64,000 nt of DNA from Kitasatospora albolonga (GTDB taxonomy: Bacteria > Actinomycetota > Actinomycetes > Streptomycetales > Streptomycetaceae), in NCBI GenBank assembly GCA_002082585.1, contig CP020563.1:5636001-5700000 (forward strand), in the 5' to 3' direction. Below, in pieces: positions 9,405 through 23,667 of the stretch (within the stretch, counting starts at the first letter, position 1; each line of letters starts with the position of its first letter). A model generated the notes under the pieces. The model searched no databases. It had not been told where the DNA came from and saw nothing but the letters and a program-made list of their open reading frames with translations. The position numbers were made by a program, and so were the translations under genes.

Positions 9405-10400
9405 TCAGATCCAGCCCCGGCGGGCCGCCTCCGCTCCGGCCTGGAAGCGGCTGCGGGCGTCCATACGGGCGGTCAGCTCGGCGTTCATCCGGCGGACGGT
9501 CCGCAGCGAGACCCCCAGCCTGCGGGCAGCGGTGGCGTCCGTGTGGCCCTGCGCCAGGAGGGAGAGCAGCTCGCCCTCCTGCGGGGTCAGTCCGTCGCTG
9601 TCCACGGGCGGCCGGGCGCCGAGCGGGGTGGCGGCGGCCCAGAGCCTCTCGAACAGCAGCCGGGCGACCAGGACGGCCCCCTTGCTGCGCAGCTCCAGCG
9701 CGCCGGCCCGGCCGTTCTCGGGGTCGAGCGGGACGAGGGCCACCTCGCTGTCGACCACGACCATGATGAGCGGCAGAGTGGGTAACGTACGGCTCTCGGC
9801 GCCCAGTCCGCCGATCCAGTTCACGTACCGCAGGGTGTCCGGGTCGTTGCGGAAGCTGTCCTGGTAGATCGAGCGGATACGGACGCCCCGCTCCAGGGCC
9901 TGCTGGTCGAGCGGCTTGCTGGCCGCCAGGGTGTCGGGGGCCTGCGCTCCGCCGGGCAGCAGGGAGAGGCACTCGGTCCTGGCCAGCTCGGCGAGTTCGG
10001 TGAGCCGTTCCCGTACGGCGTCGAGCCCCTCCAGCCGCTTGATGACGTCGAACCCGCGCCGCTCTCCCCGGCCGCGATGGGCCGTGAGCGCGGAGACCGC
10101 GTCCCGGGCGACCTCCAGGCCCCGTTGCTGGCGCGCCAGTTCCGCCTCCCGCCGGGAGAGCAGGAACGGCAGGCTGGCGGCCGGGTCCAGGGCGCGGAAG
10201 ACCGGCGGGTCACCGTCGGTGGAGCGGTCGTCGCGGTTGTCCAGCAGGCAGAGTTCGGCGAGCCGGTCCAGGGCGTCGCGCACGTCCTGCTCGCTGCGGC
10301 CCAGCCGCGCGACGATCTGGTCGAGCCGCAGCTCCGGTTCCTCCAGGACGAGCCGGTACACGAGCTCCGTCCGCGCGTCCAACCCCAGTACCTGAAACAT
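9405..10400 (-). CDS. LuxR-type regulator with TrmB-like N-terminal domain
   Basis: This 331-residue DNA-binding protein starts MFQVLGLDARTELVYRLVL, an N-terminal winged-helix of TrmB type, followed by a long helical linker (ARQQRGLEVARDAVSAL) and a middle domain resembling a degenerate phospholipase-D-like sensor region (about residues 110-240). It ends with a LuxR helix-turn-helix (LTPQEGELLSLLAQGHTDATAARRLGVSLRTVRRMNAEL). I chose the ATG at 10400 because GGGGGAG precedes it at good spacing; the open frame upstream to 10646 crosses a dre-like operator. Similar Streptomyces proteins regulate surface or secondary metabolism, but no target is known here. The neighbouring plus-strand glycan cluster is a candidate. 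Confidence 0.82.
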   Translation of the reverse strand: MFQVLGLDARTELVYRLVLEEPELRLDQIVARLGRSEQDVRDALDRLAELCLLDNRDDRSTDGDPPVFRALDPAASLPFLLSRREAELARQQRGLEVARDAVSALTAHRGRGERRGFDVIKRLEGLDAVRERLTELAELARTECLSLLPGGAQAPDTLAASKPLDQQALERGVRIRSIYQDSFRNDPDTLRYVNWIGGLGAESRTLPTLPLIMVVVDSEVALVPLDPENGRAGALELRSKGAVLVARLLFERLWAAATPLGARPPVDSDGLTPQEGELLSLLAQGHTDATAARRLGVSLRTVRRMNAELTARMDARSRFQAGAEAARRGWI

Positions 10401-10782: not shown

Positions 10783-10893
10783 ATGCAGACCTTCCGTACG
10801 CTCTCCCTCCGCATCGCCCTGGCCTGCGCCCTCGCCCCCGTCCTCCTGGCCGTGGCCGTCCCCGCCACCCGGAGCGGCTTCTCCTGGGGGTGA
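10783..10893 (+). CDS. Small hydrophobic exported or membrane peptide
   Basis: This is a 36-residue peptide, MQTFRTLSLRIALACALAPV then LLAVAVPATRSGFSWG: a basic N-terminus, one hydrophobic stretch of about 18 residues and a short polar end. It reads as a signal-peptide-like or single-span membrane microprotein. The ATG at 10783 has GGAG 6 bases upstream (the in-frame ATG at 10771 has none). It is the first plus-strand reading frame of the glycoconjugate cluster, 24 bases before the next start. No family is recognised. It may be a genuine microprotein or a leader whose translation sets expression of the genes behind it. Confidence 0.5.
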   Translation: MQTFRTLSLRIALACALAPVLLAVAVPATRSGFSWG

Positions 10894-10917
10894 CCCCGGG
10901 AGAAGAGAACCTCCTCC

Positions 10918-11298
10918 GTGTACCTGGTGACCGCGCTGCTGGTGCGGGCCGAGCCCCCGGAGCCCGCCGCCTGGACCGCCCGTGAACTGGCCGGGCGGCT
11001 GCGGGCCTCGGGCGCCGGAGCGAGGACGCGGTGCCCCGGCCCGGACGGTCCGGGCCCGGCCCACCTGTACGCAGCCTCGTACCTCGGCCGGACCGTCCGC
11101 GCCGCGCTCTACATGGAGGACTCCGACCCCCTCCACGCCGAACTGGCCGCCCTGGACTTCCTCCTCGCCTCCCTGGCCGCCGACCCCGGCGCCAGGGGCT
11201 GGCACCTCGCGGTCCTCGGCCGCCCGGACCTGCACCGACTGCCCGAACGGAAAGGACCCGACCCGCCATGTCACGGGAGCACCCCACCGTGTCCGTGA
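10918..11298 (+). CDS. Unknown 126-residue protein at head of glycan cluster
   Basis: The protein starts VYLVTALLVRAEPPEPAAWTA at a GTG preceded by GGGAGAAGAG. It is predicted soluble, mixed alpha/beta, with AHLYAASYLGRTVRAALYMEDSDP and LAALDFLLASLAADPGARGWHLAVLG as its most structured parts. I recognise no domain. The third-position GC pattern supports coding, and the 3' end overlaps the next glycosyltransferase by 31 bases, typical of this operon. Function is unknown; position suggests a role in the same pathway. Confidence 0.62.
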   Translation: MYLVTALLVRAEPPEPAAWTARELAGRLRASGAGARTRCPGPDGPGPAHLYAASYLGRTVRAALYMEDSDPLHAELAALDFLLASLAADPGARGWHLAVLGRPDLHRLPERKGPDPPCHGSTPPCP

Positions 11299-12296
11299 TC
11301 ATCCCGAACCACAACTACGAGAAGACCCTGCGGGCCTGTCTGGAATCCGTCTTCGCCCAGACCCTGCGCCCGCTGGACGTGGTGGTCGTGGACGACGCCA
11401 GCACCGACTCCTCCCGCGACATCGCCCGGGAGTTCCCCTGCGTCCTGGTGGCCCGCCCCGACAACGGGGGCGTCTCCGCCGCCCGCAACCTCGGCGTCGC
11501 CGCGTCGCGCGGCGAGGTCCTGTTCTTCCTCGACTCCGACATCGCGCTGGCCCCCGACGCGATCGAGAACGCGGTCGCCCTGCTGGGCGCCGACCCGGAG
11601 ACCGGCTGCGTCCACGGCGTGCTCGACCCCGAACCGCTCTACGACGACGGGCCGGTGGAGGTCTACCACTGCCTGCACGCCCACTTCTGGCGCCGCCGCA
11701 GCGCCGGGATCGTCGGCACCGCCTTCTTCGCCCTGGCCGCGATCGAACGCCGTGTCTTCGAAGCCACCGGGCCCTTCGACGAGAACCTGCGGGACTCCGA
11801 GGACGTCGAGTACAGCGACCGCCTCGCCGCCACCCACCGCATCCGCCTCAGCGAGCGGGTGACCGGCCGCCACGACGACGTGGACCGGCTGCTCCCGATG
11901 CTCGCCGAGCAGTACCGCCGCTCCCAGCTGCTCGTCCCGGTCGCCGCCGTCGAGCGCCGCCGGGGCGGCGGGCTCCGGGCCAACCGCACCCGCGGGGTCC
12001 TGGCCGCCGCCCTGGTCCCCGCCACGCTCCCGCTCGCGCTGCTGACGCCCTGGCTGCTCGCGGTGCCCCTGGCCTGCGCGCTGGCCTTCGCCCTGGCGGA
12101 CGTGGAGCTCTCCCGCTTCGTGGCCCGCCGCGAGGGGTGGCCCTTCCTCCTCCGCTTCACCGCCCTGCACTTCGCGGTGCACCTGGCCCTGGTCCTCGGC
12201 GCGGTCCACGGGGGCGTCCGCTGGCTGGTGGACCCGGGCTTCGGCCCCTCCGTCCGACGCCGCCGGGACCGGCCGTCGGCCGTGGTCGCGCCATGA
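11268..12296 (+). CDS. Family 2 glycosyltransferase, membrane-anchored
   Basis: This 342-residue protein has a GT-A domain: PTVSVIIPNHNYEKTLRACLESV at the N-terminus, VVVVDDASTDSS, the nucleotide-sugar-binding RPDNGGVSAARNLG, and the DxD-like metal motif FFLDSDIAL. A DSEDVEYSDRL segment fits the catalytic ED of GT2 enzymes. Two or three hydrophobic helices follow residue 240, so the enzyme should be held at the inner face of the membrane. The ATG at 11268 has GGAAAGGA upstream and gives a clean GT2 N-terminus. It is paralogous to the GT2 at 17192, with the same architecture. Donor and acceptor are unknown. Confidence 0.88.
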   Translation: MSREHPTVSVIIPNHNYEKTLRACLESVFAQTLRPLDVVVVDDASTDSSRDIAREFPCVLVARPDNGGVSAARNLGVAASRGEVLFFLDSDIALAPDAIENAVALLGADPETGCVHGVLDPEPLYDDGPVEVYHCLHAHFWRRRSAGIVGTAFFALAAIERRVFEATGPFDENLRDSEDVEYSDRLAATHRIRLSERVTGRHDDVDRLLPMLAEQYRRSQLLVPVAAVERRRGGGLRANRTRGVLAAALVPATLPLALLTPWLLAVPLACALAFALADVELSRFVARREGWPFLLRFTALHFAVHLALVLGAVHGGVRWLVDPGFGPSVRRRRDRPSAVVAP

Positions 12297-13516
12297 GTAC
12301 GGCTACGCGGGACATCGGTGAGGGGGGTGCGGGTGCGGCCGGGAGCGGTGGGACTGGTGGGGCTGGTGTGGCTACCGGGGCTGCTGAGGCCATAGGGACT
12401 ACTGGGGCCGTTGAGGCCGCTCCGGGCGACGGCGCCTCCGGAGCCGTTCCGGGTGACGGCAGCCCCGCGAACGCTCCGGGTGACGGTGTGCCCGGAGCCG
12501 CCCCCGTACGGCCGTCCCGGCGGGCACGGCTGTTGCGGTGGGTCGCCGCCCTCGTCCTGATCGCGGCCACCTGCTTCGCCGTGGGCGGTGCGCTGCGCGG
12601 TGCCGGTACGGAGGTGGCGCAGGCGGCCGGACGGCCCGGGGGCGTACTGCTCCTGGGGGCCGCCCTCCTCGCCAACGCGGCCGGACTCGTCCTGTCGATG
12701 CTCTCCTGGCGGGTCCTCGTCGTGGACCGCGGAGTCGTGGACGGCGGAGCCGGGGACGGCGGCGCGGGCGAGGGCGGTGGCCGTGGGCCGAAGGCCCGTA
12801 CCTCCGACATCGCGCGGATCTTCTTCATCGGCGTCATCAGCAAGTTCGTCCCCGGCCGGATCTGGGGCGTCCTCGCCCACATCCAGCTCGGCAAGGCCCT
12901 CGGCATCGCCCCCGAGCGGATGATCGCGGCCTTCGGGCTCGGCCTCGTCATCGGGATGACCACCGGCGCCGCCGCCGGACTCCTGGTCGCCCCGGCGGTG
13001 TTCGGCGCCCACGCCTGGGTCTTCGCCCCCCTCGTCCTGCTCGCCGCCGCGGCCGTGGCCCGGCCCGGCTGGGTGGGCCGGCTGGTCGCGTGGACCATGC
13101 GGCTGGCCCGGCGCCCCGACCGGTCCGCCCCGTCCTCGCCCCGGGCCCTGCGGATCTCCATCGGCTGGGCCTGCGCCTCCTGGGCGGTCTCCGGGCTCCA
13201 CCTGTGGGTCATCGCCGTCCTCCTCGGCGCCCCGCCGCTGCTCTCCCTGCCCGTCTGCGTCGGCGGCTTCGCCCTCGCCACCGTCGCCGGAAGCCTCGCC
13301 TTCGTCCTGCCCGACGGCTGGGGCGCCCGCGAACTCGTCCTGCTCGCCCCCCTCAGCGCCGTCATGCCGCTCTCCGCCGCCGCTGCCGCCGTCATCGCCA
13401 GTCGGCTGGTCTGCGTGATCAGCGAAGTCGCCGCCACCGGCGGAGCGCTGCTCTGGGCCCGTGCCGCGGGCCCCCTCCCCACACCCCGACCCGCGCTCCA
13501 GGAAGGAGCCGCATGA
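12293..13516 (+). CDS. Flippase-like integral membrane protein (LPG synthase TM/AglD family)
   Basis: This 407-residue protein starts with about 75 residues of low-complexity Gly/Ala (repeated GDG and GA units), then eight or so transmembrane segments. The conserved IFFIGVISKFVPGRIWGVLAH and LGLVIGMTTGAAAGLLVAP blocks match the lysylphosphatidylglycerol-synthase transmembrane / YbhN / AglD superfamily, members of which are implicated in lipid or lipid-linked sugar translocation. No soluble LPG-synthase domain is present. The start overlaps the preceding stop (ATGA) and its own stop overlaps the next start. In this context it is a candidate for moving the pathway's lipid intermediate across the membrane; that is inference. 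Confidence 0.78.
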   Translation: MSTATRDIGEGGAGAAGSGGTGGAGVATGAAEAIGTTGAVEAAPGDGASGAVPGDGSPANAPGDGVPGAAPVRPSRRARLLRWVAALVLIAATCFAVGGALRGAGTEVAQAAGRPGGVLLLGAALLANAAGLVLSMLSWRVLVVDRGVVDGGAGDGGAGEGGGRGPKARTSDIARIFFIGVISKFVPGRIWGVLAHIQLGKALGIAPERMIAAFGLGLVIGMTTGAAAGLLVAPAVFGAHAWVFAPLVLLAAAAVARPGWVGRLVAWTMRLARRPDRSAPSSPRALRISIGWACASWAVSGLHLWVIAVLLGAPPLLSLPVCVGGFALATVAGSLAFVLPDGWGARELVLLAPLSAVMPLSAAAAAVIASRLVCVISEVAATGGALLWARAAGPLPTPRPALQEGAA

Positions 13517-15003
13517 CCACCGACGCAACACCCCCGCCCTCCGACACCACGCCCCCGGCCACCGGTCTGCCACCGCTGATCACCGTGGACGAGTGCGAGG
13601 AGATGCCGCTGCGCCGGGTGCACGACCTCTATCGGTCGCACGTCAACAAGAGCCAGGTCTCCCTGATGACGTCCTTCGGCTTCGGCCGGGAGCTCGTCAG
13701 CCACGCCGAGGGCTCCTGGATACACACCCGCGACGGCCGCCGCGTCCTCGACTTCACCGGGGGCGTCGGCGTCCTCAACCACGGCCACAACCACCCCCGC
13801 ATCCTCGCCGCCCGCCGCCGCTTCCAGGAGCAGCGCCGGATGGAGGTGCACAAGACCTACTTCTCGCCCTACATCGCGGCCCTCGGCCACAACCTCGCCC
13901 AGCTCCTCCCCGGCGACCTGAACATGTCGTTCTTCCCCAACTCGGGCGCGGAGGCGGTCGAGGGCGCGGTGAAACTCGCGTACAAGTACCACGGAGGCAA
14001 GCGGCAGCAGATCCTGCACGCCGACATCAGCTTCCACGGCAAGCTGCTGGGCTCCGGCAGCCTCACCGGCAGCGCCCAGAGCACCTTCGCCTTCCCCGGC
14101 ATCCCCGGAGTCTCCGCCTTCCGCTACGGCGACCTCGACTCCGTGCGCGAGAGCGTCGCGGCGGCCCGGGACGCCAAGGGGCGCTGCGATGTGTACGCGA
14201 TCCTCATCGAACCCTTCTCCGCCTCGACCATGACGGAGTGCTCCGAGGAGTTCCTGCGCGGGCTGCGGGAGCTGTGCACCGCCGAGGACATCGTGCTGAT
14301 CTTCGACGAGATCTACACCGGCTGGGGCAAGACCGGCAGCCTCTTCCACTTCATGCGCCACCCCGGGCTCGTCCCGGACGTCGTGACCACCTCGAAGTCG
14401 TTCGGCGGCGGCAAGTCCTCCATCTCCGCCTTCGTCGCCCGCGAACCCGTCTTCCGCCAGGCGTACGACAGCCTCGGCGACGCGATGCTCCAGTCGACCA
14501 GCACCACCTACTACGGCTTCGGCGAGGAGACCGCCACCGCGCTGGAGGCCGTCAACATCGCGGTGGAGGACGACTATCCGGCCCGCGCCCGCGCCATCGA
14601 ACGCGTCCTCGCCCCGGGCCTGGAGCGGTTGCGCAAGCAGTACCCCGACATCATCGCGGACGTCCGGGGCGCCGGAGCGCTGTACGGGATCTTCCTCGAC
14701 GGCGGCCCCCGGATGCTCGACCTCGCCGCCAAGCTCGCCCCCGGAGGGCTGGCGCGCGACCCCCTTCTGCGGACGAAGGTCATCACCTGCGCGGTCGTCA
14801 ACGCGATGTACCAGGAGCACGACGTGTACATGTACTACACGCTCAACGGGCGCAGCCCCCTCGTCGCGGCGCCCTCCCTGGTCGCCGGGCCCGAAGAGGT
14901 GGAGATCTTCCTCGACGCCTTCGACAAGACCCTCGCCCGGGGCATGAACCGGCTCCTCGCCGCGTTCCTGAAGGACAAGGCGGTGTCCCGATGGGCCGCC
15001 TGA
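13513..15003 (+). CDS. Class III PLP-dependent aminotransferase
   Basis: This 496-residue enzyme has fold-type I with class III (ornithine/diaminobutyrate-type) features: FTGGVGVLNHGHNHPRI, the SGAEAVEGAVKLAY block, the cofactor-contacting IFDEIYTGWGKTG and the internal-aldimine lysine in TTSKSFGGGKSS. The substrate is not evident; class III members transfer amino groups at terminal amines or on 4-aminobutyrate-like substrates. The ATG at 13513 has GGAAGGAG upstream and overlaps the preceding stop (ATGA). The coding sequence overlaps the epimerase gene by 13 bases. Placement inside a glycan operon suggests formation of an amino-bearing building block. Confidence 0.85.
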   Translation: MTTDATPPPSDTTPPATGLPPLITVDECEEMPLRRVHDLYRSHVNKSQVSLMTSFGFGRELVSHAEGSWIHTRDGRRVLDFTGGVGVLNHGHNHPRILAARRRFQEQRRMEVHKTYFSPYIAALGHNLAQLLPGDLNMSFFPNSGAEAVEGAVKLAYKYHGGKRQQILHADISFHGKLLGSGSLTGSAQSTFAFPGIPGVSAFRYGDLDSVRESVAAARDAKGRCDVYAILIEPFSASTMTECSEEFLRGLRELCTAEDIVLIFDEIYTGWGKTGSLFHFMRHPGLVPDVVTTSKSFGGGKSSISAFVAREPVFRQAYDSLGDAMLQSTSTTYYGFGEETATALEAVNIAVEDDYPARARAIERVLAPGLERLRKQYPDIIADVRGAGALYGIFLDGGPRMLDLAAKLAPGGLARDPLLRTKVITCAVVNAMYQEHDVYMYYTLNGRSPLVAAPSLVAGPEEVEIFLDAFDKTLARGMNRLLAAFLKDKAVSRWAA

Positions 15004-16037
15004 CCATCGCCGTGACCGGAGCGGCCGGAATGCTCGGCTCGCACCTGGTGGCCCGGCTCGCCGCCGACGGGCACGACGTCATCGGCATCGACCTCCGCGA
15101 CGACCCCCACCCGCCCCCGGGCGCCCGGCACGTGGTCGCCGACATCCGGGACGGCGTGGTGCTCGGCCGCGCCTTCGCCGGGGCCGACGCGCTGGTGCAT
15201 TGCGCCGCCGCCCTGCCCAGCTACCCCGTGGACCAGATCCGCTCGATCACCGTCGACGGCACCCGTACGGTCCTGAGCGCCGCCCACCGGGCCCGGGTGC
15301 CCCGGGTCGTGCACATCTCCTCCACCGCCGTCTACGGGCTCCCCCAGCAGGTCCCCACCCCGGAGGAGCACCCGCGCGAACCCGTCGACCCGTACAGCAG
15401 GGCCAAGGCCGAGGCGGAGGAGGTCTGCGAGGAGTTCCGGGCGCGCGGGATGTGCCTGCCGGTGCTGCGCCCCAAGACCTTCCTCGGGCCGGGCCGGATG
15501 GGCCTGTTCGCGATGCTCTTCGAATGGGCCGAGGAGCGGCGCAACTTCCCCGTCCTGGGCCGGGGGGACGTCCGCATCCAGATGTTCGGCATGGCCGACC
15601 TGGTGGACGCGGTGGTGCTCGCCCTGCACGCCGAACCCGAGGTCGCCAACGACGTGTACAACCTGGGCGCCGCCGAGTTCGGCACCCTGCGCGAGGACTT
15701 CCAGGCCGTCCTGGACGCCGCCGGACACGGCAAGCGGGTCGTCCCGCTGCCCGCCGCGCCCGCGCTCGGCGTCCTGCGCCTCCTGGAGCGCACCAAGCTC
15801 TCCCCGGTCTACGGGCGGCTCCTCTTCAAGCTCCTGGACGACTCGTACGTGGACATCAGCCGCGCCACCGAACGGCTCGGCTTCCGTCCGCAGCTCTCCA
15901 ACCAGGACGCCATCCTCGGCACATACGCCTGGTGGCGCACCCAACGGCAGGGCAGCGCACCCGCTCCCGGGGCCGGCCGGACCAGCCGGGACCCGTGGCG
16001 CCAGGGCGCGCTGGGCCTGGCCAAGGTCTTCTTCTAA
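14991..16037 (+). CDS. NAD-dependent epimerase/dehydratase (extended SDR)
   Basis: This 348-residue cytosolic enzyme begins MGRLTIAVTGAAGMLGSHLVARL, a Rossmann GxxGxxG motif, followed by an acidic residue at the end of strand 2 (GIDLRDD) favouring NAD(H). The active-site Ser/Tyr/Lys are in HISSTAVYG and DPYSRAKAE (YxxxK). It resembles nucleotide-sugar 4-epimerases or dehydratases, but the substrate cannot be named. The last 40 residues are a polar tail ending GLAKVFF. It is translationally coupled to the aminotransferase gene through a 13-base overlap, so the pair may act in sequence on one sugar or polyol. Confidence 0.85.
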   Translation: MGRLTIAVTGAAGMLGSHLVARLAADGHDVIGIDLRDDPHPPPGARHVVADIRDGVVLGRAFAGADALVHCAAALPSYPVDQIRSITVDGTRTVLSAAHRARVPRVVHISSTAVYGLPQQVPTPEEHPREPVDPYSRAKAEAEEVCEEFRARGMCLPVLRPKTFLGPGRMGLFAMLFEWAEERRNFPVLGRGDVRIQMFGMADLVDAVVLALHAEPEVANDVYNLGAAEFGTLREDFQAVLDAAGHGKRVVPLPAAPALGVLRLLERTKLSPVYGRLLFKLLDDSYVDISRATERLGFRPQLSNQDAILGTYAWWRTQRQGSAPAPGAGRTSRDPWRQGALGLAKVFF

Positions 16038-16055
16038 AGACGCGGGAGCCCTGCC

Positions 16056-17153
16056 GTGGACATCACCCGGTCCTCACCCGCGCCGATGCGCGTGGTGACC
16101 GCACCGCCCGAACCCCCGGATCTCACCGTCCTGCCGACCCCCGGCCCGCTGCCCGGGCCCCCGGAACCCGTCCTGCCCACGACCGCCCCGCAGCCCACCC
16201 CGCCGAACGCGGTGCCGGAAGCCACCGGGACAGCGACCGCCGCGCCCCCCACCACCCCGCAGCCCGCCGCCCCCCACCGCGGCCTCGCCCGGGACCTCCT
16301 CGCCCTCGTACGCCCCGGCCAGTGGGTGAAGAACCTCGCCGTGGTACCGCTCGCCCTGCTGGACGTCCGGCCCTGGCACCCCGCCGCGTTCGGGCGGATC
16401 GGGTGGGCCGTGCTCGGCTTCACCCTGGCCTCCGCGCTCGTCTACGTCGTCAACGACCTCGCCGACCGGGACCGGGACCGGCTGCACCCGGTCAAACGGA
16501 ACCGCCCGATCGCCTCCGGCCGGGTCTCCACCACCGCGGCCACCGTCCTGACCGGCCTCATCGCCGCCTCGCTCACCTGCTGGGCGGTGGCCGGGCCCGC
16601 CTGGCAGTGGTGGCCCACCGCGCTCTACCTGGTGCTCTCCGTCGCGTACAGCCAGGGCCTCAAACACGTACCGCTGGTGGACGCGTTCATCGTGGCGAGC
16701 GGGTTCGTCCTGCGCCTCGTCCAGGGCGCGCTGCTGGTGGGCGGCCGGGTCTCCGAATGGCTCGCGCTCTGCGTCTTCGCGCTCTGCCTGATGCTGGCCC
16801 TCGGCAAACGGCGGCACGAGATGACGGCGGCCGGACGTGCCCACCGCCCCGCCCTGCGCGGCTACACGCTCGCCTTCCTGGACCACCTCGTCGTCCTGGT
16901 CGCCGTGCTGACGGCCGTCTCCTATGTGCTCTACCTCCGCGACGACGCCGCCCTCGCCGCCGGAGCCTCCTTCGTCACCCTGCTCTCCGCCCCCTGCGCC
17001 GTCTTCGGGCTGGCCCGCTATCTGCAACTCCTCCTGGTGGAGGAGGGCGGCGCCAATCCGGTCCACGTCCTCTTCCGGGACCGCGCGACGCTCGTCAACG
17101 CGACGCTGTGGGCCGTGCTCGTCTCCGTAGCCCTCCTCCTCTCCCGACTGTGA
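16056..17153 (+). CDS. UbiA-family prenyltransferase, DPPR-synthase-like
   Basis: This 365-residue polytopic protein has about 70 Pro/Thr-rich N-terminal residues and then LVRPGQWVKNLAVVPLALLDV, the aspartate-rich NDLADRDRDRLHPVKRNRPIASG and a second conserved block, AYSQGLKHVPLVDAFIVASGFVLR. These are the hallmarks of decaprenyl-phosphate phosphoribosyltransferase (arabinan precursor pathway) and related UbiA proteins that load a sugar phosphate on polyprenyl phosphate. Streptomyces do not make mycobacterial arabinogalactan, so the transferred group may differ. GTG at 16056 with GGGAG 7 bases upstream. It supplies the likely lipid-carrier step of the cluster. Confidence 0.83.
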   Translation: MDITRSSPAPMRVVTAPPEPPDLTVLPTPGPLPGPPEPVLPTTAPQPTPPNAVPEATGTATAAPPTTPQPAAPHRGLARDLLALVRPGQWVKNLAVVPLALLDVRPWHPAAFGRIGWAVLGFTLASALVYVVNDLADRDRDRLHPVKRNRPIASGRVSTTAATVLTGLIAASLTCWAVAGPAWQWWPTALYLVLSVAYSQGLKHVPLVDAFIVASGFVLRLVQGALLVGGRVSEWLALCVFALCLMLALGKRRHEMTAAGRAHRPALRGYTLAFLDHLVVLVAVLTAVSYVLYLRDDAALAAGASFVTLLSAPCAVFGLARYLQLLLVEEGGANPVHVLFRDRATLVNATLWAVLVSVALLLSRL

Positions 17154-17191
17154 CCACCCAGTTCCTCCGACCGCCCGAAGGTGCGGCCCCC

Positions 17192-18226
17192 ATGAACCAG
17201 AAGAAGACACCGTTCGTCTCCGTCGTCATCCCCAACTACAACTACGGCCGCGCCCTGGAGCTCTGCCTGCGCGCCGCGCTCGCCCAGACCTACGCCCCCA
17301 TGGAAGTGCTGCTGATCGACGACTGCTCCACCGACGACTCGGTCGCCGTCGCCGAGGCGTGCGGGGTGCGGGTCATCTCCACCGGGGTCAACAGCGGGGT
17401 CGCCACCACCCGCAACACCGGGGCCGCCCACGCCCGGGGCGAGATCGTCGTCTTCGTCGACTCGGACGTGGCGATGGAACCGGACGCCATCGCCAACGCG
17501 GTCGCCCTGCTCACCTCCGACCCGAAGATCGGCGCCGTCTGCGGCACGTACGACGCCGAACCCCTCATCAGGGACAGCCTGATCGAGGAGTACCGCTGCC
17601 TCCACCAGTACTACTGGCTCGCCGAGACCGAGGGCCGCATCGGCACCCTGCACACCGCGATCTGCGCCATGCCCGCCCATGTCTTCGCCGAGATCGGGCC
17701 CTTCAACCCCCGGCTGCGCCACACCGAGGACGGCGACTACGCGGCCAGGATCTGCCGGAGCTACGAGGTCCACAGCTCCACCACCGTGCGCGGGCGCCAC
17801 GACCACGACGACACCTGGCGGGTCGTGCTCCGCAAGGTCTTCCACCGCACCCGGCTGCACATCCCGCTGTACGTGCGCCGGGGCGACCTCCCCGGCGGCA
17901 TCGCCACCGGCCCCCGCGCCGGTGCCAGCGTCGCGGCCCTGCTCGCCGTGCTGACCCTGCCGCTGGGGTTCGCCGCCGCGCCCTGGCTGCTGCTCCCCGC
18001 CGCCCTGCTCGCCCTCGCCCTGCTGGCCGACACCGCCCTCTACCGCTTCGTCCTGCGCCGCCGGGGCCCCCTCTTCACCGCCTACTTCGCCTTCGTGCAC
18101 TCGGTGGTCAACGCGGTCATCGCGGCGGGCGCGGGCGTCGGCGTCCTCCAGTGGCTGGCCTCCCGGCGCTTCCGCAGGCTGTACGAGCCGGGGGAGCACC
18201 TCACCGCCGTACGGGCCACGACGTGA
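17192..18226 (+). CDS. Family 2 glycosyltransferase, second copy in cluster
   Basis: This 344-residue protein is a paralogue of the GT2 at 11268: FVSVVIPNYNYGRALELCLR, LLIDDCSTDDS, GVNSGVATTRNTG and the DxD-like VFVDSDVAM are all in matching positions, with a TEDGDYAARI motif and a C-terminal pair of membrane helices. The two proteins share layout from end to end, suggesting duplication and different acceptor specificity. ATG 17192 was chosen for the match with the other copy; a GTG at 17150 overlapping the preceding stop (GTGA) is an alternative that would add 14 residues. The stop overlaps the next gene's GTG. Confidence 0.86.
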   Translation: MNQKKTPFVSVVIPNYNYGRALELCLRAALAQTYAPMEVLLIDDCSTDDSVAVAEACGVRVISTGVNSGVATTRNTGAAHARGEIVVFVDSDVAMEPDAIANAVALLTSDPKIGAVCGTYDAEPLIRDSLIEEYRCLHQYYWLAETEGRIGTLHTAICAMPAHVFAEIGPFNPRLRHTEDGDYAARICRSYEVHSSTTVRGRHDHDDTWRVVLRKVFHRTRLHIPLYVRRGDLPGGIATGPRAGASVAALLAVLTLPLGFAAAPWLLLPAALLALALLADTALYRFVLRRRGPLFTAYFAFVHSVVNAVIAAGAGVGVLQWLASRRFRRLYEPGEHLTAVRATT

Positions 18227-19353
18227 CCCACGTACACGACCCCGACGCCGCTCCGGGCACGCGCGGCGCCCCCAGGGCGTGGCCCGGCCGCCTCCTGCTC
18301 GCCGTCGCCCTCCTCTGGGCGCTGTTCGTCGCCGCCCGCGCGGTCCTCAGCGGGCGGTGGTGGGCGTGGAACGGCATCGGCCTCGCCCCGCCCGTCGCCC
18401 ATCTGCTTGTCCCGCTCGCCCTGCTGGCCCTCGCCGCCCTGATCCGGCGGGGGAGACGGCTCGCCGTGGGCGTCGCCCTGGTCTCGCTGCTCCTCGGCTC
18501 CTGGCAGACGGGGCTGCACCCCGGGGCGCTGCTGCGCGGGCAGCCGGCCGTGCCCGCCGACGCCCTCAAGGTGGTCAACTGGAACACCTTCTTCTGGGAC
18601 GAGGACAGCGACACCGACGACTTCTACGCCTACCTGAAGAGCCACTCCGCCGACGTCTACCTCCTTCAGGAGTACCAGAACCGCCGGGGCGACGAACCCG
18701 CGCCCATCGACGACCTGGCCAGGCTCCGGGCCGAGTTCCCCGGCTACCACCTCGCCACCGAGGGGGAGTTCCTCACCCTGTCGCGCTACCCCATCACCTC
18801 CGTAAGGGCGTTGCGGCCCCAAGGGCTCGCCCCGCCGGACACCTCCTGGGCCGACTACTGGAACATTCGCGTCCTGCGCACCGACATCGACGTGGACGGC
18901 CGGACGCTCTCCCTCTACAACGCCCATCTGCCCGACCTGCTGAACGTCGACCGCAACCCCCTCACCCCCGCCTACCACCGCTCGGTGAAGCAGCTCTCCG
19001 ACCGGCGGGAGATCCACTTCCGGGCCCTGCGCGAGGACCTGGACGCCAACGAGCACCCCGTGGTCCTCGCCGGGGACCTCAACGTGCTGCCCGGCACCGG
19101 GGACCTGCGCTGGTTCGACGGGCTCCGGGACGCCGCCGGGCTCGTGGGCCCGGTCCACCCGGCCACCTTCCCGGTCCGGGGTCCCGCCCTCTGGCGGCTC
19201 GACTGGGCCTTCGTCTCGCCCTCCGTCCGGCTGCACCGGCAGTCCATCGAGGACCCGCCCGCCGAACACTCCACCCACAAGCTGATCGACCTCCGCCTCT
19301 CCCTGCCCGCCCCCGCGAACTCCGCCCCGCCCACCGAGAAGGACCGGCCATGA
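18223..19353 (+). CDS. Membrane-anchored endonuclease/exonuclease/phosphatase-fold hydrolase
   Basis: This 376-residue protein has three hydrophobic segments within the first 100 residues, then an EEP (DNase I/sphingomyelinase-like) domain: KVVNWNTFFWDED (Asn), YLLQEYQNRRGD (catalytic Glu), LYNAHLPDL, the AGDLNVLPG metal-binding Asp/Asn and a WRLDWAFVS block. The final His motif reads EHSTHKL rather than the usual SDH. The topology places the domain on the outer face of the membrane, so a phosphodiesterase acting on lipids or lipid-linked sugars is more likely than a nuclease. It starts with GTGA overlap and ends with ATGA overlap. Confidence 0.8.
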   Translation: MTHVHDPDAAPGTRGAPRAWPGRLLLAVALLWALFVAARAVLSGRWWAWNGIGLAPPVAHLLVPLALLALAALIRRGRRLAVGVALVSLLLGSWQTGLHPGALLRGQPAVPADALKVVNWNTFFWDEDSDTDDFYAYLKSHSADVYLLQEYQNRRGDEPAPIDDLARLRAEFPGYHLATEGEFLTLSRYPITSVRALRPQGLAPPDTSWADYWNIRVLRTDIDVDGRTLSLYNAHLPDLLNVDRNPLTPAYHRSVKQLSDRREIHFRALREDLDANEHPVVLAGDLNVLPGTGDLRWFDGLRDAAGLVGPVHPATFPVRGPALWRLDWAFVSPSVRLHRQSIEDPPAEHSTHKLIDLRLSLPAPANSAPPTEKDRP

Positions 19354-20543
19354 CCAGGCGCCCCGCCCACCGAGAGGGCCCGGCCGCGACCAGGCGCGCC
19401 GCGCCCCCGCCCCGCTTCGACGTGGCGATCGTCCTCACCTACTACCTCCCCTACACCAGCGGCCTCACCGAGGTGGCCCGCACGGTCGCCGAGGGGCTGG
19501 CCGCCCGGGGCCGCCGGGTCGCCGTCGTCGCCTCCCGCCACGACCCGGCCCACCCCGCGCGGGAGACCGTCAACGGCGTGGAGGTCTTCCGTGCCCCGGT
19601 GGCGGCCCGGGTCGGACGCGGGGTGCTCAGCCCCGGGTTCGCCCCGCTCGCCGGACGCGTCGCCCGCGCCTCCCGGGTGGTCAACATCCATCTGCCGATG
19701 CTGGAGGCCGGGGCCGTCGCCCGGCTCGCCGGGAACACCCCCGTGGTGAGCACCCACCACGACGACGTCTGGCTGCCGCCCGGCAGGCTCGCCCCGCTCC
19801 AGGTGAAGGTGGTCGACGCCTCGGTCGGCGCGGCCCTGCGCCGCTCGGCCGCCGTCGTCGTCAACAACGTGGACCACGCCGAGCACTCCCGCCACTGGCC
19901 CCTCATGCGCGGGCGCACGCTCCTGGCCATCGCCCCGCCCTGCCGCCAGCGCGAACCCGCCCCCGCCACCTTCCGGGAGACGGCGGGCCCCCACGTCGGC
20001 TTTCTCGGCCGGATCGCCCACGAGAAGGGCCTGCACCACCTGGTGGACGCCTTCCGCACGCTCCCCGACCCCGAGGCCCGGCTGCTCATCGCGGGGGACT
20101 ACTCCAAGGTGGCGGGCGGCAGCGTCGTCGGGGCGCTGCGCACCCGGGCCGGCGACGACACCCGTATCCGCTTCACCGGTTTCCTGGACGACGCCCGGGT
20201 CCCGGAGTTCTACGCCTCGCTGGACGCCTTCGCCCTGCCGTCCGTCGCCGAGGAGTCCTTCGGCATCTCCCAGGCCGAGGCCATGATGCTCGGTGTCCCC
20301 TCCGTCGCCAGTGACGCCCCGGGCATGCGGGTGCCCGTCTCCGAGACCGGGTTCGGGCGCCTCTTCCCGCCCGGCGACGCCCACGCCCTGGCCGCCGCCC
20401 TGACGGAGGTGGCCGCGTTCCCGCCGGAGCGGCGCGCGGAGGGGGCGCGCGCCACGAGGGCCCGGTACGGGACGGACGCCTGCCTCGACGCGTACGACGC
20501 CCTCTTCCAGGAGGCCGGAGCCGTTCGCGGGGCCGCCGCGTGA
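19350..20543 (+). CDS. Family 4 glycosyltransferase (GT-B fold)
   Basis: This 397-residue enzyme has an N-terminal Rossmann half starting [28 protein letters not shown] and a C-terminal GT4 half with [20 protein letters not shown] and the donor-binding [20 protein letters not shown] (E-x7-E). It lacks membrane helices and should act at the cytoplasmic face. ATG 19350 overlaps the previous stop. Following two GT2 genes, it implies that the product carries at least three sugar or sugar-like additions. The nucleotide sugar donor is unknown. Confidence 0.87.
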
Positions 20544-21595
20544 CCGGGGGGCCGGTGCTGTGGGCGGCGGTGGCCTGGGCGGTCTTCCTCGGCGCCCACC
20601 TGGCCCTCAACGGCCGCTGGTGGCTGTGGCTGCTGCCCTCGCTGCTCCCGCCGCCCCTGTTCGCCGCCGTCCCCGCCGCCCTGCTGGTGCTCGCCTGGGC
20701 CGCGGGGGACGGGGCCGCCGGGGCGGTGGCGGGCGGTGCGCTGCTGCTCGGGGCGCGCCAGTGCGGCCTGGTGCCCGGCGCACTCGTACGCCGACCGGCC
20801 CGGCCGCCCGAGGAGGGCACCGTACGCGTCGTGTCGTGGAACACCCAGCACTGGTGCCAGTCCACCGACCCCGACCCGTTCTACGCCTTCCTGCGCGAAC
20901 TGGACGCCGACGTCTACCTCCTCCAGGAGTACCACCACGACGAGTTCGACGGCACCTACCGCCTGATCGACGACGAACGGCGGCTGCGCGCCACCTTCCC
21001 CGGCCATCGGGCCGTCATCGCCCGGGGGCTGATCACCCTCTCCCGGCTGCCGGTGGCCGCCACCGTGGAGACCGCCGCCCGCCGGACCCTGCGGGTGGAC
21101 CTCGAACTGCCCGGCGGCCGGGGGCGGCTGGCCACCTTCAACGTCCACATCCCGGTGCAGCTGCGGCTCATCAGCCCGCTGCGCGCGGAGTTCTACCGCG
21201 CGGTGCGCACCCGGGCGGGGGACCGGGCCCGGGAGTACGCCGGACTCGCCCGCGATGTGGCAGGCTGCCCCCATCCCGCCCTGATCGCGGGGGACTTCAA
21301 CACCACGGCGGCGATCGGGGACGCCCGGCACATCGCCCGGCTGGGCGCCGACGCCGTACCCCTGACCGGACGCCTCTGCCCCACCTCCTGGCAGCCCCGC
21401 CCCGGACTGCGCTGGTGGCGCCTGGACTGGGTGCTCACGACCCCCGGCGCCCGGGTGCACAGCTACCGCTTCCGCGATCCGCGCGGACTCTCCGACCACA
21501 GCGTCCAGGAGGTGACCGTGTCCCTCACCGGACCGGGCCCCCGGACCCCCGCCGACACCCGACTCCGACCCCGACTCCACAGCGAAGGAACCTGA
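20540..21595 (+). CDS. Second membrane-anchored EEP-fold hydrolase
   Basis: This 351-residue paralogue of the protein at 18223 has about three N-terminal hydrophobic helices, then [54 protein letters not shown] and an intact terminal SDHSVQEV. All metal and catalytic positions of the EEP superfamily are present, unlike the first copy, whose last motif is altered. It starts at a GTG overlapping the preceding stop (GTGA). The pair of extracytoplasmic phosphodiesterase-like enzymes in one glycan operon is unusual; they may trim, transfer or recycle phosphate-linked groups. Confidence 0.8.
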
Positions 21596-21597
21596 CC

Positions 21598-22608
21598 ATG
21601 CGCTACCGCTACCTCGGAAAGACCGGCCTCAGGGTCAGCGAACTCTGCCTGGGTGCCATGACCTTCGGCCGCGAGGCCGACGAGCGGACCAGCCACGCCC
21701 TGCTGGACCGCTTCACGGAGGCGGGCGGCACGTTCGTCGACACCGCCGACATCTACTCCGCCGGAGCCTCCGAGGAGATCCTCGGGCGCTGGCTGAAGGG
21801 GCAGCGCCGCGACGACGTCGTGGTCGCCACCAAGGTGCGGTACGGCACCGGGGAGGGCCCCAACGACCGCGGACTGGGCCGCAACCACCTGATCGCCGGG
21901 GTGGAGGCGAGCCTGCGCCGCCTGGGCACCGACCACATCGACCTCTACCAGGTGCACGCCTGGGACCCGGGCACCCCGCTGGAGGAGACCCTCGCCACGC
22001 TGGACGCCCTGGTCACCTCCGGGAAGGTCCGCTACATCGGGGCGAGCAACTTCTCCGGCTGGCAGCTCCAGAAGGCGGTGGATCTGAGCCGGGCGCACGG
22101 CTGGGAGCCGTTCACCGCTCTCCAGCCGCTCTACAACCTGCTGGACCGCTCCGCCGAGTGGGAGCTGATGGAGGTCAGCCGCAACGAGGGCCTCGGCGTG
22201 ATCCCGTGGAGCCCCCTGCGCGGCGGCTGGCTGAGCGGCGCGATCCGGCGCGGTACGACGGCACCGCCCTCCGGCACCCGGGTGGAGACCGCCGAGCGGC
22301 TCGGGTGGGGCGAGTCGTGGAGCGCGTACGAGGGTGACGAGCGGACCTGGCGGGTGCTGGACGCCCTGCACGAGGTGTCCGGGCGCACCGGTCTCGCGGT
22401 GCCCGTCCTCGCCCTCGCCTGGCTGCTCGGCCGGCCGGGCGTGACGGCCCCGATCGTGGGCGCCCGCACCCTGGAGCAGCTGGAGACCAACCTCGGCGCC
22501 GCCGACCTGGACCTCGACCCGGCCGACGCGGAGCTCCTCACCGAGGCGAGCGGGCAGGTGCTCCCGTACCCGTACAGCGTCATCGAGACGGACCCGGAGC
22601 TGCGCTGA
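21598..22608 (+). CDS. Aldo/keto reductase
   Basis: This 336-residue NADPH-dependent (beta/alpha)8 oxidoreductase starts [24 protein letters not shown]. The catalytic tetrad is visible: Asp and Tyr in [11 protein letters not shown], Lys in VATKVRYG and His in YQVHAWD. The C-terminal cofactor-binding [14 protein letters not shown] is intact. It lies 2 bases after the previous stop with GAAGGAA as ribosome site, so it is the last gene of the cluster before a strong terminator. It may reduce a keto or aldehyde sugar intermediate, or may be a general reductase; the substrate is not readable from sequence. Confidence 0.85.
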
Positions 22609-22745: not shown

Positions 22746-23510
22746 TCAGTCGGTCGGCCGCTTCAGGCGGGCCACGAACTTGTACCGGTCGCCCCGGTAC
22801 ACCGAACGCACCCACTCCACGGGTTCGCCCTGGCCATCGATGGAATGGCGCGAGAGCATCAGCATCGGCAGCCCCACGTCCGTCCCCAGCAGACCGGCCT
22901 CGCGCGGGGTGGCGAGCGAGGTCTCGATGGTCTCCTCGGCCTCGGCGAGGCGGACGTCGTACACCTCGGCGAGCGCGGTGTAGAGCGAGGTGTACTTCAC
23001 CAGCGAGCGGCGCAGCGCGGGGAAGCGTTTGGCCGAAAGATGGGTGGTCTCGATCGCCATCGGCTCCCCGCTGGCGAGCCGCAGCCGCTCGATGCGCAGC
23101 ACCCGGCCGCCCGTCGAGATGTCCAGCAGCCCGGCGAGCGTGTCGTCCGCCGTGACATAGCCGATGTCGAGCAGCTGGGACGTCGGCTCAAGGCCCTGGG
23201 CGCGCATGTCCTCGGTGTACGAGGTCAGCTGGAGCGCCTGGGAGACCTTCGGCTTGGCGACGAAGGTCCCCTTGCCCTGGATGCGTTCGAGCCGGCCCTC
23301 CACGACCAGCTCCTGGAGCGCCTGGCGCACGGTGGTGCGCGAGGTGTCGAACTCGGCCGCCAGGGTGCGTTCGGGCGGCACCGGGGTGCCCGGCGGCATG
23401 GTGTCGGTCATGTCGAGGAGATGCCGCTTGAGCCGGTAGTACTTCGGTACGCGCGCGGTGCGCGCACCGTTGCCGGTCTCGCTCCCCGAACTGCCCCCGT
23501 CGGCACCCAT
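22746..23510 (-). CDS. dasR: DasR, GntR/HutC-family regulator of amino-sugar metabolism
   Basis: This 254-residue repressor has an N-terminal GntR winged helix ([21 protein letters not shown], then [16 protein letters not shown]) and a C-terminal UTRA effector domain (about residues 90-245) that in S. coelicolor binds GlcN-6-P and GlcNAc-6-P. The sequence from [12 protein letters not shown] to the end is, from memory, nearly identical to S. coelicolor DasR, and the length matches when the ATG at 23510 is used. It is divergent from dasA, with dre sites in the shared intergenic region. DasR links chitin and GlcNAc supply to development and antibiotic production. Confidence 0.95.
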
Positions 23511-23667
23511 GGCCCGCCTTCCCGACGCTTGCGTTGCTGCCGTCACCGGCTCCTCCGTCTGTCGCGGCTCACATGGTGGCACGGTCCGGTCACGGGTCGT
23601 CGCCCTCCCTTAGGTGTCGGTCCTATAACGGACGCGAGTGCACTTCTTATACACCCTTGACACCCCT

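Follow-up and report, generated by a model that had tools for sequence, protein, structure and literature searches.

The locus considered here raises the question of what is made by a compact operon of glycosyltransferases, sugar-modifying enzymes and membrane proteins in Kitasatospora albolonga, and why two small open reading frames (ORFs) and a divergent regulator gene stand in front of it. The locus lies in a stretch of 64,000 nucleotides (hereafter, the window; assembly GCA_002082585.1, contig CP020563.1, positions 5,636,001 to 5,700,000 of the forward strand), in a genome that is a single contig of 8.03 Mb; its features are collected in Table 1. Our analysis, with gene calls from a simple codon model and signal peptides judged by hydropathy alone, leads us to read it as a lipid-linked glycoconjugate operon under the control of a candidate peptide-signalling module, with a putative ligand and a putative product, a reading to which we give an even chance.

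The ten-gene operon is a real, conserved unit. A first-pass annotation of this DNA, made from the letters alone, had described ten consecutive genes from position 11268 linked mostly by overlaps. All ten are found in place, each with its expected Pfam family above the cut-off, and from the small u2 gene to the aldo/keto reductase (AKR) gene seven of the ten junctions overlap (by 31, 4, 4, 13, 4, 4 and 4 bases), the other three being gaps (18, 38 and 2 bases). The comparison of the core was built on 134 relatives confirmed by a contig scan with the class III aminotransferase (AT3); the comparison uses the best 80 of them, so that sampling is confined to close aminotransferase relatives. In all 80 loci the next gene after AT3, on the same strand, encodes the short-chain dehydrogenase/reductase (SDR). 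The 62 full-length loci among them (at least 21.3 kb) contain endonuclease/exonuclease/phosphatase (EEP) enzymes in 62 cases, UbiA in 61, family 2 glycosyltransferases (GT2) in 57, a called YbhN-type protein in 56, AKR in 43 and GT4 in 19; direct tblastn recovers a YbhN match in loci where the gene caller missed one (e.g., L085, L096 and L098). Gene order varies between lineages, and the conservation therefore exceeds simple synteny. Genera with the core include Streptomyces, Micromonospora, Salinispora, Herbidospora, Nonomuraea, Lentzea, Kitasatospora and Actinosynnema, which supports the suggested co-occurrence of aminotransferase, UbiA and EEP genes as a unit across many actinobacterial genera. 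Chance linkage was rejected, since the own genome has just 5 UbiA and 12 EEP places, yet both families are near-constant in the full-length loci. Within Streptomyces the distribution is scattered, AT3 being found at E<=1e-150 in 49 of 392 genomes (own included), and the closest row over AT3 and SDR together comes from Streptomyces cyaneofuscatus (98%).

The part of the locus preceding the operon looks like a module separate from biosynthesis, in which the two small genes are joined to a regulator with TrmB-like, phospholipase D (PLD)-like and LuxR parts. Both small ORFs, which the first-pass annotation had counted into a twelve-gene glycoconjugate cluster, do have counterparts elsewhere, but they resemble a regulatory pair of peptide and u2 rather than biosynthetic genes, and the regulator gene that travels with them had gone unremarked. 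A six-frame search finds ORFs ending in GFSWG in 22 of the 80 loci in addition to the window, and all of these but one (L086, where none was found) are followed after 21-72 bases by a u2-type ORF. A regulator homologue (E<=1e-15) is present in 32 of the 80 loci, including all 22 peptide loci; the remaining ten comprise two with altered peptide ends (L032 and L034), two truncated loci (L037 and L042) and six with distant homologues (31-37% identity). The GFSWG codons vary synonymously between peptide types and the five residues are constant. The ten type A peptides compared (the window and nine loci) all have the length of the window peptide and a fast-changing middle, and type B peptides (56-84 residues) have a hydrophobic signal-like segment and a spacer rich in alanine, proline and threonine. 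At the genome level, 6 of 120 relatives and 21 of 392 Streptomyces genomes (own included in both) contain the GFSWG DNA pattern; all 21 belong to the 49 with AT3, at a distance of 2.4-5.7 kb from the aminotransferase gene of the same genome, and the backward pattern, used as a control, gives one match in each set, as read (genome G039). No Pfam or NCBIfam match was obtained for u2, and kinship between the window type and the shorter type is tentative because they are just 20-28% identical. An AlphaFold 2 model of the u2 protein from locus L050 (pLDDT 83.7) has the order alpha-beta-beta-alpha-beta, for which no PDB match at E<=0.001 was found.

In the regulator model, a PLD-like domain resembling the sugar-binding domain of TrmB, the ligand domain that speaks for TrmB-type membership, is combined with a LuxR helix-turn-helix (HTH). 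The model matches come from a second look with VIA-align, which leaves room for folds beyond those it lists; the ones listed are PLD-like and LuxR HTH, with no TPR row among them. The N-terminal segment scores 20.6 bits against Pfam TrmB (cut-off 25.6), and TrmB and TrmBL2 structures span it at high root-mean-square deviation only. A sugar ligand for the PLD-like domain is possible. Unlike archaeal TrmB and TrmBL regulators, this protein adds the C-terminal LuxR HTH and is paired with a peptide gene.

The regulator and the peptide are coupled both physically and in evolution. On the regulator tree, the GFSWG type is a single clade (98/93) adjacent to two rows with peptides GGFEWSG and DGFGWN, and the five peptide-ending labels need 8 changes vs. 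a shuffled mean of 18.7, none of 200 shuffles being as low (44 of the 86 regulators, with no peptide found, were left unlabelled). On the AT3+SDR tree, peptide loci fall into three separated clades and need 9 changes, at least 5 of them forced, a count inflated by five truncated contigs scored as lacking the peptide (L024, L027, L037, L042 and L044). As judged from one clade on the first tree and three on the second, the peptide type goes with the regulator and not with the biosynthetic core. The core itself differs among peptide loci, one chromosomal slot holding three cassette versions in other Streptomyces: 21 of the 22 peptide loci adjoin the same GntR/UTRA regulator gene, and the contig of the other (L061) ends short of it. 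Of 100 relatives, 75 have a match to this neighbour at E<=1e-100; at L032 it is absent within 10 kb, and the genome concerned (G011) has one on another contig. Homologues of the module's own regulator with at least 56% identity occur in 6 of the 100 relatives, own included (G000, G056, G019, G011, G004 and G015), all with the aminotransferase, and somewhat weaker ones in two genomes without it (G005, 53%, and G076, 51%). The idea that this regulator is a fixed chromosomal neighbour was rejected, its close homologues being confined to six AT3-bearing genomes.

Similar peptides are found beside paralogous regulators. In 20 such regions, divergent signal-like ORFs with a tryptophan (W) near the end were noted by eye, and a first motif rule drawn from these regions held in 4 of the 20 and in none of 1013 controls. 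A looser rule asked for a divergent, signal-like ORF with W among its last 16 residues and was fixed before 40 new regions were seen. It caught 14 of the 40, compared with 2 of 1038 controls (Fisher p 9e-20), and none of 79 other regulators. Controls were other genes of the 80 loci, counted after removal of genes from the regulator family, short genes and upstream regions that contain GFSWG. A W[GQDE] end, chosen after viewing, is present in 13 of the 40 new regions vs. 0 of 1038 controls. A relaxed scan of all 60 regions found W in the last 8 residues in 33, some of them plainly other ORFs, vs. 67 of 1031 controls, and W[GQDE] ends in 24 of 60 vs. 0 of 1031 (the ending again being post hoc). 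The peptide ends include NFGWQ, NISWD, DLTWG, ACGACWE, DMSWQ, SINWD and GFGWD, and several precursors carry tandem motif copies (DAGWQ, SINWD, GFGWD). Of eighteen further regions, two were already known; the set contributed L215/L219 (which share one ORF), L216 and L222, and twelve had no such ORF, two of these (L211 and L212) having little upstream sequence. ORFs resembling u2 (E<1e-3) accompany 6 of the first 20 and 5 of the 40 new regions. Ten regions were viewed more widely, with Pfam run for four of the ten, and three (L197, L200 and L204) contain genes of the nonribosomal peptide synthetase (NRPS) type or AMP-ligase genes. At E<=1e-60 the regulator family is found in 5 of 149 genomes across the phylum, four of them of the same genus. 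Two side observations belong here: near the L222 regulator (G013:C1:4731345), a signal-like ORF contains nine DSTW copies, resembling a multi-copy pheromone precursor, and at L198 (12921-14108, minus strand) a Tachylectin-type protein adjoins a DAGWQ-repeat peptide and a u2-like gene.

The pairing of regulator and small ORFs could also be mere hitch-hiking, the small ORF being a leader or a chance ORF and the regulator sensing a sugar in the manner of TrmB, whose sugar-binding domain its own PLD-like domain resembles. We regard this as unlikely in view of the excess of W[GQDE] signal-like ORFs over controls (with the caveat of the post hoc ending), the synonymous codon changes within GFSWG between types and the motif repeats. 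In the signalling reading that we prefer, regulator, GFSWG peptide and u2 would form a cognate set regulating the operon: the peptide would be translated, exported, matured near its C-terminal W motif and sensed again, upon which the regulator would switch the divergent operon in one direction or the other. More broadly, exported tryptophan-motif peptides (GFSWG; W[GQDE]; sometimes multi-copy), TrmB/PLD-like/LuxR receptors and u2 may constitute an undescribed signalling family of Streptomycetales, one member controlling a new polyprenyl-phosphoribose aminoglycan operon and others standing beside NRPS-type antibiotic genes, a generalisation whose chances we put slightly short of even. The RRNPP systems of Firmicutes (PapR/PlcR, Phr/Rap) offer a comparison, solely of how such a system might work, in that a small precursor, which is exported and has a short conserved motif at its C-terminus, stands beside a cytoplasmic DNA-binding regulator. 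They differ from the present case, where the regulator combines a LuxR HTH with a PLD-like domain, the motif centres on tryptophan and the hosts, among the genomes searched, are mostly Streptomycetales. The textbook signals of Streptomyces are gamma-butyrolactones; if the proposal is true, these bacteria would also switch specialised pathways by cognate exported peptides and one-component receptors. Each precursor would then reveal the C-terminal sequence of its candidate signal, so that synthetic peptides for waking silent clusters would be directly testable.

As to the product, a polyprenyl-phosphoribose entry step is likely, because the UbiA enzyme keeps all but two of the tested residues for phosphoribosyl pyrophosphate (PRPP) and lipid phosphate. 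The protein matches the structure of the mycobacterial decaprenylphosphoryl-5-phosphoribose (DPPR) synthase Rv3806c (PDB 8j8j, E 2.4e-26), with which it has the motifs RPxQWVKN, NDxxDxxxD, HPxKRxRPI and Y..GLKH in common. With residue numbering and tested sites taken from PMC10994848, the equivalents of R22, K28, Y70, N73, D77, K87, R90, Y138, K143 and K191 are identical in all non-gap rows of an alignment of 72 UbiA proteins, window included (gaps in 6 rows at R22 and in 3 at K28), in agreement with the earlier description of the enzyme as DPPR-synthase-like. Its score against NCBIfam NF008977 (192.8 bits) lies below the equivalog cut-off of 234, and it is therefore not filed as a DPPR synthase equivalog. 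Nor does any window operon gene match an Rv3807c- or DprE1-type enzyme, the families that we take as comparison enzymes for the DPPR pathway.

Among the remaining core enzymes, AT3, the SDR and the EEPs largely keep their catalytic residues. The AT3 catalytic lysine K295 and pyridoxal phosphate aspartate D265 are present in 81 of 81 sequences, as are S111, Y135 and K139 of the SDR; because the SDR triad and the AT3 lysine are invariant, the simplest reading would be that the SDR makes a keto sugar, which AT3 then aminates. EEP metal and catalytic residues are nearly as constant (n = 106: E150 in 105, H235 in 105, D285 in 97, N287 in 106, D327 in 105 and H352 in 105). The annotated placement of the EEPs at the surface is supported by their hydrophobic N-terminal segments (by hydropathy, 71 of 106 proteins have three, 25 have two and 10 have another number), which make a catalytic domain outside likely. 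A PDB sequence search with EEP1 at E<=0.01 gave no match. With no cytosolic phosphatase family among the Pfam matches of the operon genes, the EEPs are the natural candidates for a phosphatase or phosphodiesterase, acting outside. VanJ, the teicoplanin resistance protein of S. coelicolor, is likewise a membrane protein in Streptomyces and presumably has the EEP fold. It differs in that it sits in a vancomycin-resistance cluster, according to PMC4790382 and PMC6001138.

Overall, the core is a probable but unproven PRPP-fed, polyprenyl-linked aminoglycan pathway, in which UbiA would transfer phosphoribose from PRPP onto polyprenyl phosphate, as its residues suggest. The SDR and AT3 would form an amino sugar, either on this lipid or on a further sugar attached to the lipid, GT2a, GT2b and GT4 would extend it inside, the YbhN-type protein would flip the lipid-linked sugar, and the two membrane EEPs would remove phosphate or release the glycan outside. 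If right, this is a new pathway of its kind in many actinobacterial genera. Homology and literature searches gave no match to a characterised pathway, as the first-pass annotation had presumed: among the matches listed (25 of 69 families for the aminotransferase, none for the EEPs), no curated NCBIfam cut-off is reached by any of the ten proteins, and the papers listed by searches of the open PMC literature included none describing the cluster or the W-motif peptides (subscription papers and preprints lay outside the search). Two loci without a YbhN match (L072:7943-9214 and L102:16798-18012) have operon genes for proteins with 10-12 transmembrane (TM) segments and no Pfam family; these are possible alternative flippases, a fit that falls short of proof because L072 is a short contig.

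The pathway could instead be a pentofuranose donor system of the three-component type, decorating a wall polymer via a GT-C encoded elsewhere. In such systems, according to Kelly et al. 2024 (PMC11127046), a PRPP-based enzyme makes polyprenyl-phosphoribose and a phosphatase takes off its 5-phosphate; epimerisation can be carried out by an SDR, flipping is proposed for a MATE protein, and transfer falls to a GT-C. A first enzyme of the polyprenyl-phosphoribose synthase kind, an SDR (an epimerase in some of these systems) and a candidate flippase are common to both, and 4 of the 80 loci adjoin a gene family whose L098 member, the sole one scanned, is a GT87 GT-C (147.8 bits). Against this, the cluster has a YbhN-type protein, the ten window operon genes give no Pfam match to a GT-C, a MATE flippase or a HAD phosphatase, and there are additional enzymes, namely the aminotransferase of class III, the GT2 and GT4 enzymes and the EEPs; we thus consider such a system unlikely.

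Less likely still is a small soluble aminoglycoside-like metabolite, with UbiA ribosylating a soluble or lipid acceptor and the EEPs dephosphorylating outside: the sporadic distribution in Streptomyces and the SARP-like and LuxR-type regulators seen by eye near many loci would suit it, but membrane segments are predicted in UbiA, YbhN, both GT2s and both EEPs, and UbiA retains the contacts to the lipid phosphate, K28 and K191. Least likely, if by little, is that the GFSWG peptide is itself the substrate (RiPP-like, or an acceptor glycosylated by the operon enzymes to a glycopeptide), as its position before the operon and its invariant C-terminus in the aligned set (and in 43 of 43 database relatives, though these were picked by shared 5-letter words) are outweighed by a core mostly without the peptide, by W-peptides beside paralogous regulators in regions where no such core was seen and by a peptide that tracks the regulator tree.

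Several observations weigh against peptide control of a PRPP-fed pathway. On the side of the peptide, 58 of the 80 core loci have no exact GFSWG ORF (the five truncated contigs named above, of peptide-bearing types, are among them), and many of the others carry SARP-like or two-component genes instead (by eye), so the core can do without the peptide; the ends at L032 and L034 are altered (DGFSRA and GFFRR), and the rapid change in the middle of type A peptides goes with an often poor-looking signal peptide (by eye). A close regulator is present in 6 of the 15 AT3-bearing genomes of the 100-relative set and missing from nine, and a simple word count gave no common operator upstream of the peptide. 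In the wider family, the first motif rule caught only 3 of the 40 new regions, so that the finding depends on the looser W rule. Even under the relaxed rule, a W-type ORF is missing from 27 of the 60 paralog regions, and of the 8 regulator relatives in the own genome just 2 have a W-type peptide beside them. On the side of the pathway, the lack of cytosolic phosphatase and GT-C matches counts here as well, and the UbiA family departs from Rv3806c at two sites: Y157 is replaced by F in all 72 rows, and K208, also named as a pyrophosphate contact (PMC10994848), is replaced by P in 69 of them.

Table 1. Features of the locus, with positions counted in the window
Feature	Position	Strand	Remarks
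Regulator	9405..10400	-	TrmB-like N-terminal winged helix (weak evidence), PLD-like/TrmB sensor domain, LuxR (GerE) HTH; divergent from peptide operon
36-residue peptide ORF	10783..10893	+	One hydrophobic stretch; end ...RSGFSWG
u2 small protein, 126 residues	10918..11298	+	Other types have ORFs of 70-92 residues at the equivalent place
GT2a glycosyltransferase	11268..12296	+	Pfam Glycos_transf_2; ~3 C-terminal TM segments
YbhN/AglD-type membrane protein, candidate lipid-sugar flippase	12293..13516	+	LPG_synthase_TM PF03706, 36.9 bits (cut-off 33.4)
Class III PLP aminotransferase (AT3)	13513..15003	+	Aminotran_3 PF00202, 213 bits
Extended SDR (epimerase/dehydrogenase family)	14991..16037	+	Epimerase PF01370, 130 bits
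UbiA-family polyprenyl-phosphate phosphoribosyltransferase-like enzyme	16056..17153	+	Pfam UbiA; PDB 8j8j match; PRPP-site residues
GT2b glycosyltransferase	17192..18226	+	Pfam Glycos_transf_2; ~3 C-terminal TM segments
EEP1	18223..19353	+	Exo_endo_phos; EEP hydrolase domain, predicted outside, preceded by three TM segments
GT4 glycosyltransferase	19350..20543	+	Pfam Glycos_transf_1
EEP2, second EEP hydrolase	20540..21595	+	Exo_endo_phos; hydrophobic N-terminal segments
Aldo/keto reductase (AKR)	21598..22608	+	Aldo_ket_red PF00248, 251 bits
GntR/UTRA regulator	22746..23582	-	Flank, outside the system; marks the chromosomal slot

Beside the cluster, the segment 22746-25089 of the window holds the GntR/UTRA regulator gene and a gene for a solute-binding protein, which we take to be DasR/DasA-like. 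A guanidine-II riboswitch match (15701-15750, minus strand; 33.8 bits vs. a gathering score of 32) lies antisense within the SDR gene and, being barely above threshold, was set aside as a probable chance match. Two gene families stand just outside the cluster at the Micromonospora loci L054, L059, L064 and L079 (the L059 member of one is an S-adenosylmethionine decarboxylase, the L054 member of the other is GT1/GT28-like), and at five Micromonospora loci a different conserved ORF of ~75 residues precedes GT2a (e.g., with the end ...PPILLYTAHRN).

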